From assembly GCF_020097135.1 (NCBI RefSeq), contig NZ_CP083608.1, positions 1,302,001 through 1,366,000 of the forward strand: a stretch of 64,000 bases of DNA. Reading direction: 5' to 3'. The notes under the pieces are model-generated. The model did not search any database. It had not been told where the DNA came from and saw only the letters and a program-made list of their open reading frames with translations. Below are positions 9,961 to 47,135 of this stretch, in pieces. The stretch comes from Macrococcus armenti (GTDB taxonomy: Bacteria > Bacillota > Bacilli > Staphylococcales > Staphylococcaceae). A program made the position numbers and the translations under genes. Positions within the stretch are counted from its first letter, which is position 1; every line of letters starts with the position of its first letter.

Positions 9961-10191
9961 AAAAAGACGAAGAACAAAAGTTCTTCGCCTATACGATAGT
10001 ATCCAACTGAGCCGTCATTGTATAGTTGATCATTTTGGCCTGATAAATTCAGGTGGGTGCCCTGTTTCTTATTCAGCAAGTCCTCCGTTAGAGGCGTGTG
10101 CATCCTATGAAAACCTATTAGGCTCCCTGATCATAGAGTGTTAGGTCAAAATATAAAAACTAATGTCGTACTCTTCAGACACCTATCTTAT
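9961..10191 (-). ncRNA. ssrS: 6S RNA
   Basis: An RNA gene of about 230 nt, not coding on either strand, between aspS and tcdA where Bacillus 6S-1 RNA (bsrA) lies. Promoter TTGCAT (10220-10225), 16-nt spacer, TATTAT (10198-10203) predicts a start near 10191. It ends in an 8-bp GC-containing hairpin (9968-9975 / 9980-9987) and a T run. The interior can form a long irregular rod, as expected of a molecule that mimics an open promoter and binds sigma-A RNA polymerase. The call rests on synteny, size, promoter and terminator; a covariance search would settle it. Confidence 0.82.
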
Positions 10192-32139: not shown

Positions 32140-32232
32140 ACCTCCTATTATTTATAAGTCACGCCATCTTCAGGTGGATTGCTCACTTAAACCCAAAGTT
32201 GTGCGGTTGTATGTAGCCTGAAACTACTCAAC
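32140..32232 (-). promoter_or_regulatory. rplU leader RNA (probable L21 leader)
   Basis: About 95 nt of untranslated leader between the promoter and rplU, with GC-rich complementary segments such as CCACCTGAAGATGGCGTGAC. Bacilli have an autoregulatory L21 leader at this position. I could not verify the consensus structure by eye, so the call is mainly positional. Confidence 0.55.
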
Positions 32233-35806: not shown

Positions 35807-37543
35807 TCATGACCTTCCTGACTGTAATGCATACATTTTAGCATATTGGCCATTCAGTGCAATCAGTTCCTCATGATTTCCATGTTCAATAATTTCCCCT
35901 ATATCAAGAACGATAATTTGATCCGCCTGCTTTATCGTAGACAACCTGTGCGCGATCATAAATGTCGTTCTTCCTTCCTTCAGCACATCCATTGCTTCTT
36001 GAATCATCGCTTCTGTTTCAGAGTCAATGCTCGCTGTCGCTTCATCCAATATTAAAATTTTAGGGTTAAATGCAAGTGCTCTTGCAAACGAAATAAGCTG
36101 TCGCTGACCACTGGATAGTGTTGCGCCTCTTTCTACTACAGGTGTATCGATGCCTTGTTCTAACGACTGCAGCACACGATGCCCACCGACACGCATTAAA
36201 GCTTGTTCTGCAACGTCACGACTGATTCTCGCGTCACCGAGTGTAATATTACTTAAAATTGTACCCGTATATAAATATGGGTCCTGCAATACAATACCCA
36301 TACCTTCTCTCATTGATGATTTCGTCACTGTAGATGTATCAATGCCATCAATCATAATTTTACCAGATGTCGGATCATAAAATCTGAAGAGCAAGTTCAT
36401 AATTGAACTCTTTCCAGAACCGGTATGCCCAACAAGTCCGATTGTCTGGCCAGGTAGAGCATGAATATTAATATTTTTCAGTACGGGCTCATTTGGTTTA
36501 TAACCAAATGATACATTATCAAATACAACGTCACCGTTCGTTATATTAATTGTATCTTTTTCAATCGGCTCAGGTGTTTCATCCATCATTTCAAACACTC
36601 TGTTACTTGATACACGGGCTTGTTCAAGTACATTCAGCTGATTCACGATATTAAACATCGGGTTGAATAAACGTGTCAAATAATCAACGAGAACATACAT
36701 CATCCCTGCTGTTAATGTGGCCTGCTGTGATAAAAATGATTGCCCGAATATATAGATCATTATTAAAAACACGCCTGAACGAATGATTCCCATTAAGTTG
36801 TGACTCGTCAATGAGTCTAATTTAATGATACGCTCATAGTTTTTTAAGTACTCTCTATTCAACGCATCATATTCTGCTTTAATTTTTTCTTCCTGGTTAA
36901 ATGCCTGTATCATCGTCATCCCATTAATCGATTCATTCAGCATCGCATTCATATCACTGTTACGTTCACGAACAATATGGTTATATCGGTCTGAAATTTT
37001 ACGATAGAACATCAGCCAGAAAAATAATAATGGTACTACTATTAATGCGACGAACCCTACTTTTACGTTAAAGAAGAAAATCACGATTATAATACCGATA
37101 ATATTTGTAAATCCTGCGATATAAGTCGGTAACATAACTGTAAACAGTTCTAATATCGTCTGTGTATCATTCGTAATTCTCGCAACAACTTTACCGGCTG
37201 GCAAATTATCGAAGTACTTAATCGGTAATTTCTGAATATGTTCAAATAAATTCGTTCGTAAATGCTTAATAACATTTGAACCTGCTGTCTGAAACACTAA
37301 CGTCTGATAATAACTGAGTACTGCATATATTATTGCGATTATAAAATATACAGCAAGCAATTTATAAATAGGTATCATATTAATATATTCGCCCGCCGTT
37401 TTAATATGATCATCAATAATACGCATCCCGATAACCGGCCCGATAAGTTCTGCTGCAACGGCAAAGAACAAAATAATAAACCCGATTATAAAACGACGTC
37501 GTTCTTTTAATGCTTCCTTTAAGAGACGTTTCGTTGTACTCAT
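35807..37543 (-). CDS. ABC multidrug exporter half, canonical ATPase (BmrD-like)
   Basis: 578 aa. Six-TM exporter domain (residues 1-320), then an ATPase with Walker A GHTGSGKSS, signature LSSGQRQL and canonical Walker B LILDEATASID. It pairs with the upstream half to form a heterodimeric exporter of the BmrCD/LmrCD kind. It starts one base inside the stop of its partner gene. This half has the intact catalytic glutamate. Confidence 0.93.
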   Translation of the reverse strand: MSTTKRLLKEALKERRRFIIGFIILFFAVAAELIGPVIGMRIIDDHIKTAGEYINMIPIYKLLAVYFIIAIIYAVLSYYQTLVFQTAGSNVIKHLRTNLFEHIQKLPIKYFDNLPAGKVVARITNDTQTILELFTVMLPTYIAGFTNIIGIIIVIFFFNVKVGFVALIVVPLLFFWLMFYRKISDRYNHIVRERNSDMNAMLNESINGMTMIQAFNQEEKIKAEYDALNREYLKNYERIIKLDSLTSHNLMGIIRSGVFLIMIYIFGQSFLSQQATLTAGMMYVLVDYLTRLFNPMFNIVNQLNVLEQARVSSNRVFEMMDETPEPIEKDTINITNGDVVFDNVSFGYKPNEPVLKNINIHALPGQTIGLVGHTGSGKSSIMNLLFRFYDPTSGKIMIDGIDTSTVTKSSMREGMGIVLQDPYLYTGTILSNITLGDARISRDVAEQALMRVGGHRVLQSLEQGIDTPVVERGATLSSGQRQLISFARALAFNPKILILDEATASIDSETEAMIQEAMDVLKEGRTTFMIAHRLSTIKQADQIIVLDIGEIIEHGNHEELIALNGQYAKMYALQSGRS

Positions 37544-39279
37544 TACGATACACCTCCTAACTGTTGTCTGTTAAATTGTTGCTTGTACCATCCATCCTGA
37601 GCGATAAGTTCCTGATGTGTACCTTCCTGAATAATAATACCGTCATGCAGCACGACGATATGATCTGCATGTTGTACTGCAGACAAGCGATGTGTAGAGA
37701 TTATCGTCGTCTTTCCTAGTCTTTCTGATTGAATATTGTTAATAATTGCTGTTTCCGTCTTTGCATCTACTGCACTAAGAGAGTCATCAAGAATCAATAT
37801 GTCCGGATTTTTAATCATTGCACGCGCGATTGAGATACGCTGCTTCTGACCACCGGAAATTGCGATTCCCTTCTCACCTACTAAAGTATCAAGCCCCTGA
37901 GGCAATCGTTTCACATCTTCAGTAAAATTCGCCAGACGTATTGCTTCTGCAATTTCCGACTCAGTAGCATCCTCTTTTCCGAATTTAATATTTTCTCGAA
38001 CCGTTCTTGAAAATAATATATTTTCCTGAGAGACATAACCGATTTTATCTCGCACTTCTTTTCTTGTAAGGTGATTTAAATGAATATCACCGATTGTGAT
38101 AGAACCGTTACCGAGTGGATATTCTTTTAATATTTGCTTTATGAGCGTTGTCTTACCACTTCCCGTTGGGCCGACGATACCGAGTGTCTCGCCCGTATCG
38201 AGCTTAATATTCACATCTGTTAAGTTAATCGATTCACTCGTTGGATACTGGAATGTTACACGACTGAACGTAACATTATGATCATCTGGTACGATATGAT
38301 CGACTGGATCAACCATTATATCATCTGCATCAAGCGTTTCCATAACACGGTCTAAAGATGCATTACCGCGTTGCATAATATTAAATAACATGCCAATTGC
38401 AAACATTGGCCAAACGAGCATGTTTAAGTATACGTTGAATGAAATTAATTCACCGACTGTAATTTCACCTTTATTAACGAGTAAACTTCCGTAGCCTAAA
38501 GCAATAACAAAACTTAATGCCGTAATGATAATTGTTACAGGTTTAAATAAAGCATCAAGCTTTTCTACATGAATAAATTTTTGAACGACTTCACTTGTCA
38601 TCGCTTTAAATCGATGATTCAAATGTTCTTCCTGCGCGAAAGCTTTCGATACGCGTATACCTTCAATTGATTCAAGTACACTGTCATTCATATCACCGAA
38701 TGCATTCTGACTCACCGTATATCGCTCATGAATCATCTTACCGAGACGCTGCTCAATATATGCTAATAGTGGTAACGGTATTAATGCAACAAGCGTCAGT
38801 TTCCATGAAATGAGCACCGCCATTGTTGCAATAATCGTAATCATGTAAGTCGTACTATCAACTAAAGTTAATATACCGAAACCGACAGTCATTCTGATTG
38901 CACTTAGATCATTCGTCGCTTTCGCCATTAAATCTCCAGTTCTGTTCTGTTCATAAAAGCTCGGGCTCATCGTCAAAAACTTTGCCATCAATTTTCTGCG
39001 CATCATACTTTCTAACAACTGAGACCCATTAAATAATAAGTAGCGCCATAAAAAGTTAATCACATAACTTAATATAATCGTTACTGAGAAAACGATGAGA
39101 ATAAACTTAAATTTATCTTCTGTCATCGATTTTAAATTGACAGCATCTATCGTCTGCCCGATTAGCCATGGCGGAATAATTTCCACAACATTTGCAATGA
39201 GCAATACGATTATTGCAATAATATAACGTTTTTTCTCCTGCTTAAAAAACCAACCTAATTTCCATAAAACACTAAACAT
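37543..39279 (-). CDS. ABC multidrug exporter half, degenerate ATPase (BmrC-like)
   Basis: 578 aa. Six-TM exporter domain and ATPase with Walker [10 protein letters not shown], signature ISGGQKQR and Walker B LILDDSLSAVD, in which the catalytic glutamate after the Walker B aspartate is replaced by aspartate. This is the asymmetric pattern of BmrC in the BmrCD heterodimer. It is preceded by a leader-peptide attenuator and follows a GGAG site. Substrate range is unknown, but translation-inhibiting antibiotics are likely inducers given the leader. Confidence 0.93.
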   Translation of the reverse strand: MFSVLWKLGWFFKQEKKRYIIAIIVLLIANVVEIIPPWLIGQTIDAVNLKSMTEDKFKFILIVFSVTIILSYVINFLWRYLLFNGSQLLESMMRRKLMAKFLTMSPSFYEQNRTGDLMAKATNDLSAIRMTVGFGILTLVDSTTYMITIIATMAVLISWKLTLVALIPLPLLAYIEQRLGKMIHERYTVSQNAFGDMNDSVLESIEGIRVSKAFAQEEHLNHRFKAMTSEVVQKFIHVEKLDALFKPVTIIITALSFVIALGYGSLLVNKGEITVGELISFNVYLNMLVWPMFAIGMLFNIMQRGNASLDRVMETLDADDIMVDPVDHIVPDDHNVTFSRVTFQYPTSESINLTDVNIKLDTGETLGIVGPTGSGKTTLIKQILKEYPLGNGSITIGDIHLNHLTRKEVRDKIGYVSQENILFSRTVRENIKFGKEDATESEIAEAIRLANFTEDVKRLPQGLDTLVGEKGIAISGGQKQRISIARAMIKNPDILILDDSLSAVDAKTETAIINNIQSERLGKTTIISTHRLSAVQHADHIVVLHDGIIIQEGTHQELIAQDGWYKQQFNRQQLGGVS

Positions 39280-39298
39280 AATTCATCTCCTTTCTCTT

Positions 39299-39353
39299 TG
39301 AATATAAAAAAGCACACACCTCCTTAAATGAAAGCGTGTGCGCCTTATATTCA
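39299..39353 (-). terminator. Attenuator terminator before the ABC exporter
   Basis: 8-bp stem GCACACGC/GTGTGTGC (39334-39341 / 39312-39319, one G-U pair) followed by T6, flanked by a further 9-bp pairing TTATATTCA/TGAATATAA. It lies between the leader ORF and the exporter genes and should stop transcription unless disrupted. Confidence 0.85.
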
Positions 39354-39372
39354 GAGAGAGATCTCCCTGCAA

Positions 39373-39447
39373 TTACACTGACATGTATGCCGGGAGGAAA
39401 ATATTAGATTTGTCCTGCAATGTTACGAAATAACGTAATTTGTTCAT
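39373..39447 (-). CDS. Leader peptide, 24 aa, controlling the ABC exporter
   Basis: ATG 39447 follows a perfect AAAGGAGG site 8 nt upstream; the frame runs 24 codons (MNKLRYFVTLQDKSN then IFLPAYMSV) to TAA 39373. Too short for normal gene calls. It is the only good ORF between the promoter and the attenuator terminator. By analogy with BmrB of B. subtilis, a ribosome stalled here would alter the hairpins. The ribosome site can itself be masked by an 11-bp perfect pairing with codons 14-18 of the ORF. Confidence 0.8.
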   Translation of the reverse strand: MNKLRYFVTLQDKSNIFLPAYMSV

Positions 39448-39480
39448 TGTATTTTCCTCCTTTCCTTATAAGTTATGTTA

Positions 39481-39509
39481 ATCATAATTTAATCTTCAGA
39501 AAATTTCAA
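39481..39509 (-). promoter_or_regulatory. Promoter of the leader peptide-exporter operon
   Basis: TTGAAA (39504-39509), 17-nt spacer, TATGAT (39481-39486). Confidence 0.75.
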
Positions 39510-39545: not shown

Positions 39546-39908
39546 TTAATAATCAGCTTGATAAATTATACGGTACTTTGAACGGTCAAGTGTTATGAGA
39601 CGCTTTAAATCTCTGTGCAACTGAAACATGTACTCAAAATAAATATCACCATATTCATACGATCCGAAAAACGGTCCAGTATAGTACGGTAATATTTTTG
39701 GTGCGCGTTCAGGACTTGAGTGAATTTCTCTTACTGCATTCATCAAATAATGCAAGTCGAATTCCGTCACTTCACATCGTCCTGGATTATCCAGCTTATA
39801 TTTCTTATCAAAGTATCCATGTAAAGCATTGAACTTACGATAATATGCAAATTCAATCAATTCTTTCGTAGACATTTCCTCAACATAAAAATACATGTCT
39901 AATCCCAT
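39546..39908 (-). CDS. Hypothetical protein of the MGLDMY type
   Basis: 120 aa beginning MGLDMYFYVEEMSTKELIEFAYYRK, rich in aromatic residues. Proteins with this MGLDMY start are frequent in phages and plasmids; their function is unknown. It overlaps the radC stop by one base and so is probably cotranslated with it. It looks like a complete small gene with no visible domain. Confidence 0.75.
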   Translation of the reverse strand: MGLDMYFYVEEMSTKELIEFAYYRKFNALHGYFDKKYKLDNPGRCEVTEFDLHYLMNAVREIHSSPERAPKILPYYTGPFFGSYEYGDIYFEYMFQLHRDLKRLITLDRSKYRIIYQADY

Positions 39909-46915: not shown

Positions 46916-47135
46916 AAAATCCATCCTATATAAATAGGACGGATTTTCCGTGGTACCACCTAAATTCAGCATTGCTACTGCACTCAAAAGATTAACGCTC
47001 TTACACGTATTTACCTACTTTATTCAATAAATAATTATATCGGGCTACCTTCATAAATTAGTACTATGCATTCTCACCAACCATGCACTCGCTTAAAATA
47101 CACCTTTACTACTCTTCCCATCAATATATGAACTT
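46916..47135 (-). promoter_or_regulatory. T-box riboswitch leader of valS-folC
   Basis: Antiterminator element AGGTGGTACCACGG (46949-46962), terminator with 14-bp stem (46916-46929 / 46934-46947) and T run, and stem I in which the specifier loop is well formed: a GGG/CCC base helix, a 5' AGTAGTA, and on the 3' side GAAG then GTA (47046-47048), a valine codon followed by G. It senses uncharged tRNA-Val and raises valS-folC. Confidence 0.95.

Follow-up and report, generated by a model that had tools for sequence, protein, structure and literature searches.

Among the closest described systems is the bmrCD operon of Bacillus subtilis, which is controlled by an antibiotic-induced, translation-dependent read-through (PMC4191407): the operon is induced by lincomycin, erythromycin and chloramphenicol, and translation of its leader is needed (PMC4191407, PMC9226507). 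In the published model of this leader, bmrB is a 54-codon ORF with a GTG start that contains the terminator, and three structures are placed at nt 60-162 (Reilman et al. 2014, PMC4191407). The same three drugs induce Rli59 of Listeria monocytogenes, the mechanism of which has not been worked out (PMC8079631). For vmlR, also of B. subtilis, residue variants of the uORF from other Bacilli proved largely interchangeable (PMC9226507).

The locus analysed here lies on the minus strand of a 64,000-nucleotide stretch of Macrococcus DNA (the window), and by comparison with loci from named organisms the window falls near Macrococcus/Macrococcoides. A sequence-only reading had proposed a leader-peptide attenuator ahead of a BmrCD-like exporter, and the parts on which it was built (a promoter, an ORF of 24 codons preceded by a strong Shine-Dalgarno (SD) sequence, an intrinsic terminator with T6, and the exporter genes) were all present where it had placed them. 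The BmrCD-like identity was borne out as well: the best solved (PDB) relatives of the two half-exporter genes are YheI (BmrC) and YheH (BmrD), in the same order. Judging from sequence, we consider it likely that the locus controls a BmrCD-type multidrug exporter by bmrB-type, ribosome-mediated attenuation of transcription, through a leader whose SD locks itself. Its features are the following.

39481-39509, minus strand: candidate promoter (-35 TTGAAA at 39509-39504, 17-nt spacer, -10 TATGAT at 39486-39481)
39451-39460, minus strand: segment 1, the leader SD region GGAGGAAAAT, forming the 5' strand of helix P1 (sequence, fold, covariation in Bacilli)
39373-39447, minus strand: leader ORF with ATG start, 24 codons and TAA end, MNKLRYFVTLQDKSNIFLPAYMSV; its SD is AAAGGAGG
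39393-39402, minus strand: segment 2, ATTTTCCTCC, within the leader ORF, forming the 3' strand of P1 (dinucleotide-shuffle p 0.005 for the window locus)
39363-39372, minus strand: segment 3, TTGCAGGGAG, just past the leader stop, the alternative partner of segment 2
39352-39369, minus strand: 3:4 hairpin CAGGGAG/CTCTCTG, adjoining the terminator (fold of the post-stop region); it excludes the 2:3 pairing
39306-39341, minus strand: intrinsic terminator GCACACGCTTTC-ATTTAA-GGAGGTGTGTGC plus T6 (39311-39306), with a 12-pair stem at 39341-39312
39287-39293, minus strand: SD of the first exporter gene, AAAGGAG, which can pair with 39352-39360 in the read-through RNA (fold)
37543-39279, minus strand: BmrC-like ABC half-exporter, 578 aa (YheI/BmrC, E 4.5e-209; Pfam ABC_membrane and ABC_tran)
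35807-37543, minus strand: BmrD-like ABC half-exporter, 578 aa (YheH/BmrD, E 8.9e-174; Pfam)

The two half-exporter genes overlap by one base, and the 578-aa BmrD-like protein lacks the insert of about 95 residues found in the first half of B. subtilis BmrD. Since the leader stop (39373) precedes the start of the terminator stem (39341), the terminator lies outside the leader ORF. The position of the ORF and the terminator with its position are kept in all nine genomes of the genus. The TTGAAA-17-TATGAT pattern occurred at chance level in a scan (8 found vs 7.8 expected); in the same nine genomes, however, hardly any variation is seen in the -35 element, the spacer or the GAAGATTA that follows downstream. 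A 120-aa ORF (39546-39908, minus strand), located between radC and the promoter of the leader, had no NCBIfam or Pfam match; its C-terminus can be recognised at the corresponding position in relatives within the genus.

At the gathering score, Rfam contained no family matching the leader, nor the leaders in the upstream regions of 20 relatives. The latter search gave one SAM riboswitch match elsewhere in region L117. Elsewhere in the window, the Rfam elements were a T-box (46932-47133, minus strand) before a valine-tRNA ligase-like gene, a 6S RNA (9996-10184, minus strand) and an L21 leader (32147-32218, minus strand).

What the sequence-only reading had overlooked is that the leader SD and the 3' half of the leader ORF are complementary. 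The stretch GGAGGAAAAT (39460-39451), comprising the SD and its spacer, is the perfect complement of ATTTTCCTCC (39402-39393), and in the predicted fold the resulting helix, P1, closes the leader SD and draws the start codon into the stem. The 176-nt leader RNA as a whole was predicted to fold at -56 kcal/mol (z -6.8 vs dinucleotide shuffles). P1 is present in 9/9 genomes of the genus, and both of its strands are almost invariant. The pattern GGAGGAAA-N40-68-TTTTCCTCC occurred at the locus in seven of these nine genomes, where it is unique to the leader locus, while 99 further genomes from the family lack it; the two genus genomes outside the pattern carry CCTCG instead of CCTCC.

To follow P1 beyond the genus, we used 194 upstream regions of BmrC relatives from Bacilli, leaving out region L205. 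A leader ORF with a downstream terminator was present in 169 of them, by a rule that ignores pairing, and grouping at 70% similarity reduced these to 69 clusters. Mammaliicoccus and two sister genera keep the P1 pairing with other letters, so that beside the GGAGGAAAAT:ATTTTCCTCC of the window there are variants such as AGGAGGAGATTAAT:ATTAATTTATCCTCCT and GGTAGTGA:TCACTACC. Over the 69 clusters, the cognate duplex of SD and ORF had a mean energy of -15.45 kcal/mol vs -10.51 kcal/mol for swapped partners (z -16.7), and none of 5000 permutations was as good as the cognate set; 79% of 104 leaders reached p <=0.05 when compared with dinucleotide-shuffled versions of the interiors of their ORFs, and duplexes of -13 or below were found for 81% of the leaders and for 0/37 of the exporter genes' own SD sites used as a control, all these figures being read with the caveat that leaders were chosen partly by a strong SD, which favours CCUCC-type partners, a bias that the swap, shuffle and exporter-SD controls meet only in part, and that the clusters are phylogenetically non-independent. 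At positions -8 to -1, from the SD core to the start codon, many standard pair types occur across clusters, reversed ones included. The median distance from the ATG to the start of the locking segment is 46 nt (IQR 42-54.5), and the stop codon follows the segment at a median of 12 nt. Within Staphylococcaceae alone, P1 co-varies with a rank of 12 of 720 group permutations. On these comparisons we are highly confident that P1 is a real and conserved helix.

The leader frame is kept open: between codon 11 and the last base of the locking segment, stop codons occur in frame in only 2/59 clusters, vs 34 and 28 for the other two frames. Translation of the leader in this organism is thus predicted. 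The proposal of a leader-peptide attenuator held in part: the layout of promoter, short ORF, terminator and exporter recurs across Bacilli, B. subtilis included, and the peptide itself is probably not the sensor. Were it the sensor, as in a classical peptide-specific attenuator of the ermC/msrD style, a drug-dependent arrest sequence within MNKLRYFVTL... would stall the ribosome and switch the RNA. A translated short ORF with a terminator before a drug exporter is the usual context for such a device, and the leader peptides of the closest relatives begin alike, with MNKL. However, no common motif, drug-arrest motifs included, was found in the leader peptides of the 69 clusters, and the anti-SD segment is spread over all three codon phases (24/13/15). 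Even among members of the genus, the peptides have drifted apart over a nearly constant RNA sequence: the frame through segment 2 mostly reads YFPP (or YFPR), with IFLP in the window and IFLL in the relative L020. In the B. subtilis group, pN/pS was 0.86, a value from a small sample and at sites also constrained by RNA pairing. Peptide-specific arrest is thus an unlikely explanation in our estimate. The conserved part of the switch looks like an RNA fold rather than a peptide, because this fold is found across Bacilli in differing sequences.

As an alternative to P1, segment 2 can pair through CTCCC.GCA (39396-39388) with segment 3, and this 2:3 pairing and P1 are mutually exclusive. Across Bacilli, the alternative partner differs with the length of the spacer. 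In short-spacer leaders, segment 2 pairs with the 5' arm of the terminator (z -6.8), with no post-stop signal; in long-spacer leaders, part of which may be of the short-spacer type, since an extra terminator-like hairpin was passed over in some of them (L070), it pairs with the post-stop stretch (z -8.8), with no terminator signal. By its predicted pairings, the short-spacer class is the textbook arrangement of anti-antiterminator, antiterminator and terminator, as exemplified by the Cohnella leader L100, where CGTAACC pairs with GGTTACG. L070 and its relatives (Lederbergia group) have two tandem terminator-like hairpins between leader and exporter; on visual inspection, the 5' arm of the first complements the lock strand.

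By the same group permutations within Staphylococcaceae, co-variation is seen for the 2:3 pairing (rank 4 of 720) and not for the pairing of segment 2 with the terminator (rank 396 of 720). Pairing of segment 1 with the terminator was not significant over the 69 clusters (z -1.4). The minimum-energy fold of the window leader retains the terminator at every ribosome position; the cheapest fold without it costs 4.9 kcal/mol, draws on letters beside P1 and not within it, and is peculiar to the window, being absent from the other Macrococcus examined.

A conserved antiterminator was looked for in the Macrococcus/Mammaliicoccus branch and none was identified, which would suit a more modest role for P1: the helix might merely limit wasteful translation of the leader, or be a by-product of avoiding SD-like clashes, with a leaky terminator allowing low, constitutive expression of the exporter. 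Yet two alternative partners of one strand co-vary, which a passive lock would not need, and the B. subtilis operon is drug-induced through its leader (PMC4191407), so that we hold this explanation to be very unlikely.

The segment downstream of the leader stop suggests a further possibility, namely a mainly translational attenuator, in which the fourth segment would hide the exporter SD and the choice between 2:3 and 3:4 would set exporter translation in the read-through RNA. The UCUCUCU of the window can indeed pair with AGAGAAAGGAGAU at the terminator base and exporter SD, and vmlR, cplR and tlrB all combine transcriptional and translational layers (PMC9226507, PMC10201436, PMC6851288). Nevertheless, the exporter SD is only partly paired in the predicted ensembles, and its pairing with the pre-terminator segment, found in the window, shows no co-variation between groups (z -0.6). 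Because of this absence of co-evolution in the relatives, we do not claim a function for the pairing of the exporter SD with 39352-39360; sequestration of that SD was rejected as a candidate, and so was an ermC-type translational attenuator, the exporter SD having no co-variation with upstream segments. A mainly translational control seems to us quite unlikely.

P1 is best read as an SD-locking anti-antiterminator, and the preferred transcriptional switch would work as follows. RNA polymerase would expose the leader SD ahead of the locking segment, so that a ribosome could load only during a short interval after promoter escape. With no ribosome, or with one that reads through quickly and exits, P1 would close, later initiation would be shut off and the terminator would form, leaving the operon off. 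A ribosome slowed by a drug in the first half of the leader would instead block P1 and release segment 2 for pairing downstream. In short-spacer relatives, the released strand would take the 5' arm of the terminator, a direct antitermination; in long-spacer relatives and in Macrococcus, it would take the post-stop segment. The sequence of the peptide would be largely irrelevant, and the features kept would be the open ORF and the pairing.

The B. subtilis-type region of our sample (L167) encodes a BmrC 100% identical to the PDB sequence of YheI and includes the published bmrB, an ORF with a GTG start that measures exactly 162 bp and stops 119 bp short of bmrC. Sixteen bases upstream of the GTG, and in another frame, starts an ATG ORF of 23 codons, MPRNLRVYQTVSYWRGKPFVLFS (relative to bmrC, the starts are at -297 for the ATG ORF and -281 for the annotated bmrB GTG). 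The SD of the ATG ORF, GAAGGAGGG, scores -14.4 vs -5.2 kcal/mol for that of the annotated GTG ORF. The ATG ORF stops before the terminator, and it carries the lock: P1 is formed here by GAAGGAGGGTTTGC with GGCAAACC, the latter at about +44 of the ORF. Both the ATG ORF and the lock also occur in the near relatives of B. subtilis examined, and P1 is absent from the published B. subtilis bmrB model and ORF annotation (PMC4191407).

The published start mutant of bmrB cannot discriminate the GTG from the ATG ORF, because it also altered the 5'-UTR, removing other starts and ribosome sites (PMC4191407). An in-frame GFP fusion to the annotated bmrB ORF was fluorescent (PMC4191407), implying some translation in that frame. 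We infer the ATG ORF to be the principal leader in B. subtilis. The bmrB annotation may be the wrong ORF, having a poor SD and overlapping an ATG ORF with an ideal SD and a lock.

Some upstream regions have a second short ORF right before bmrC (-20 to -45), for example L063, L070, L123 and L170, that ends in E(G/S)G-stop. Such endings (ESLEGG, VELESG, EKIEGG) were found in 82/194 upstream regions and in none of the shuffled controls, with none in Macrococcus. This ORF might act as an additional leader or as a coupling element.

Taken together, these observations raise the prospect of a Bacilli-wide class of RNA sensor, in which the leader ORF would lock its own SD at about codon 15, ribosomes loaded before the lock would test each transcript, the peptide would be free to vary, the lock strand would act as (anti)antiterminator, and B. 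subtilis bmrB would have been annotated in the wrong frame; to this wider proposal, taken whole, we give an even chance. If true, it would explain how a single leader can respond to several unrelated translation inhibitors with no arrest peptide specific to a drug, and such sensors could be found by a sequence-independent signature, the complement of an SD at about +45 in an ORF of 20-30 codons. The published bmrB model becomes directly testable in B. subtilis, including the question of which ORF is the real leader. For a leader that has neither a conserved peptide nor an Rfam family, the covariation, extending over dozens of clusters, is strong.

No description of an SD lock within a leader was found in the open-licence literature, although a prior report elsewhere is possible. 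Among the known systems, Rli59, which precedes lmo1652 of L. monocytogenes, resembles the locus in combining a small ORF with premature termination ahead of an ABC transporter (PMC8079631). The tlrB (yxjB) leader of B. subtilis likewise has a leader peptide and a terminator and must be initiated before a structure closes; it differs in that a peptide-dependent tylosin stalling (RXR motif) physically blocks the terminator, and in that the leader SD is generally unlocked (PMC6851288).

The logic of vmlR of B. subtilis is similar, with a uORF in an anti-antiterminator hairpin that a stalled ribosome blocks, freeing the antiterminator strand (PMC9226507). However, its uORF encodes a tripeptide, its SD is single-stranded before the hairpin, and it controls an ABCF factor and not an exporter (PMC9226507), whereas in the leaders studied here the 5' strand of the hairpin is made by the SD itself, and the ORF spans about 17-40 codons. 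We did not assign the locus to a vmlR-type leader, which calls for a very short uORF and an exposed SD; the ORF in the window has 24 codons, and its SD lies inside P1.

By operon identity, the window system belongs with the bmrB attenuator, and it probably works like it. The two share a related exporter operon, a promoter, a short leader, an intrinsic terminator and P1, with drug control known in B. subtilis (PMC4191407). They differ in that the published bmrB ORF contains the terminator (PMC4191407), whereas the ORF of the window ends before it and the key helix involves the SD. This difference, however, depends on the published annotation, because the ORF that bears P1 in B. subtilis also stops before the terminator.
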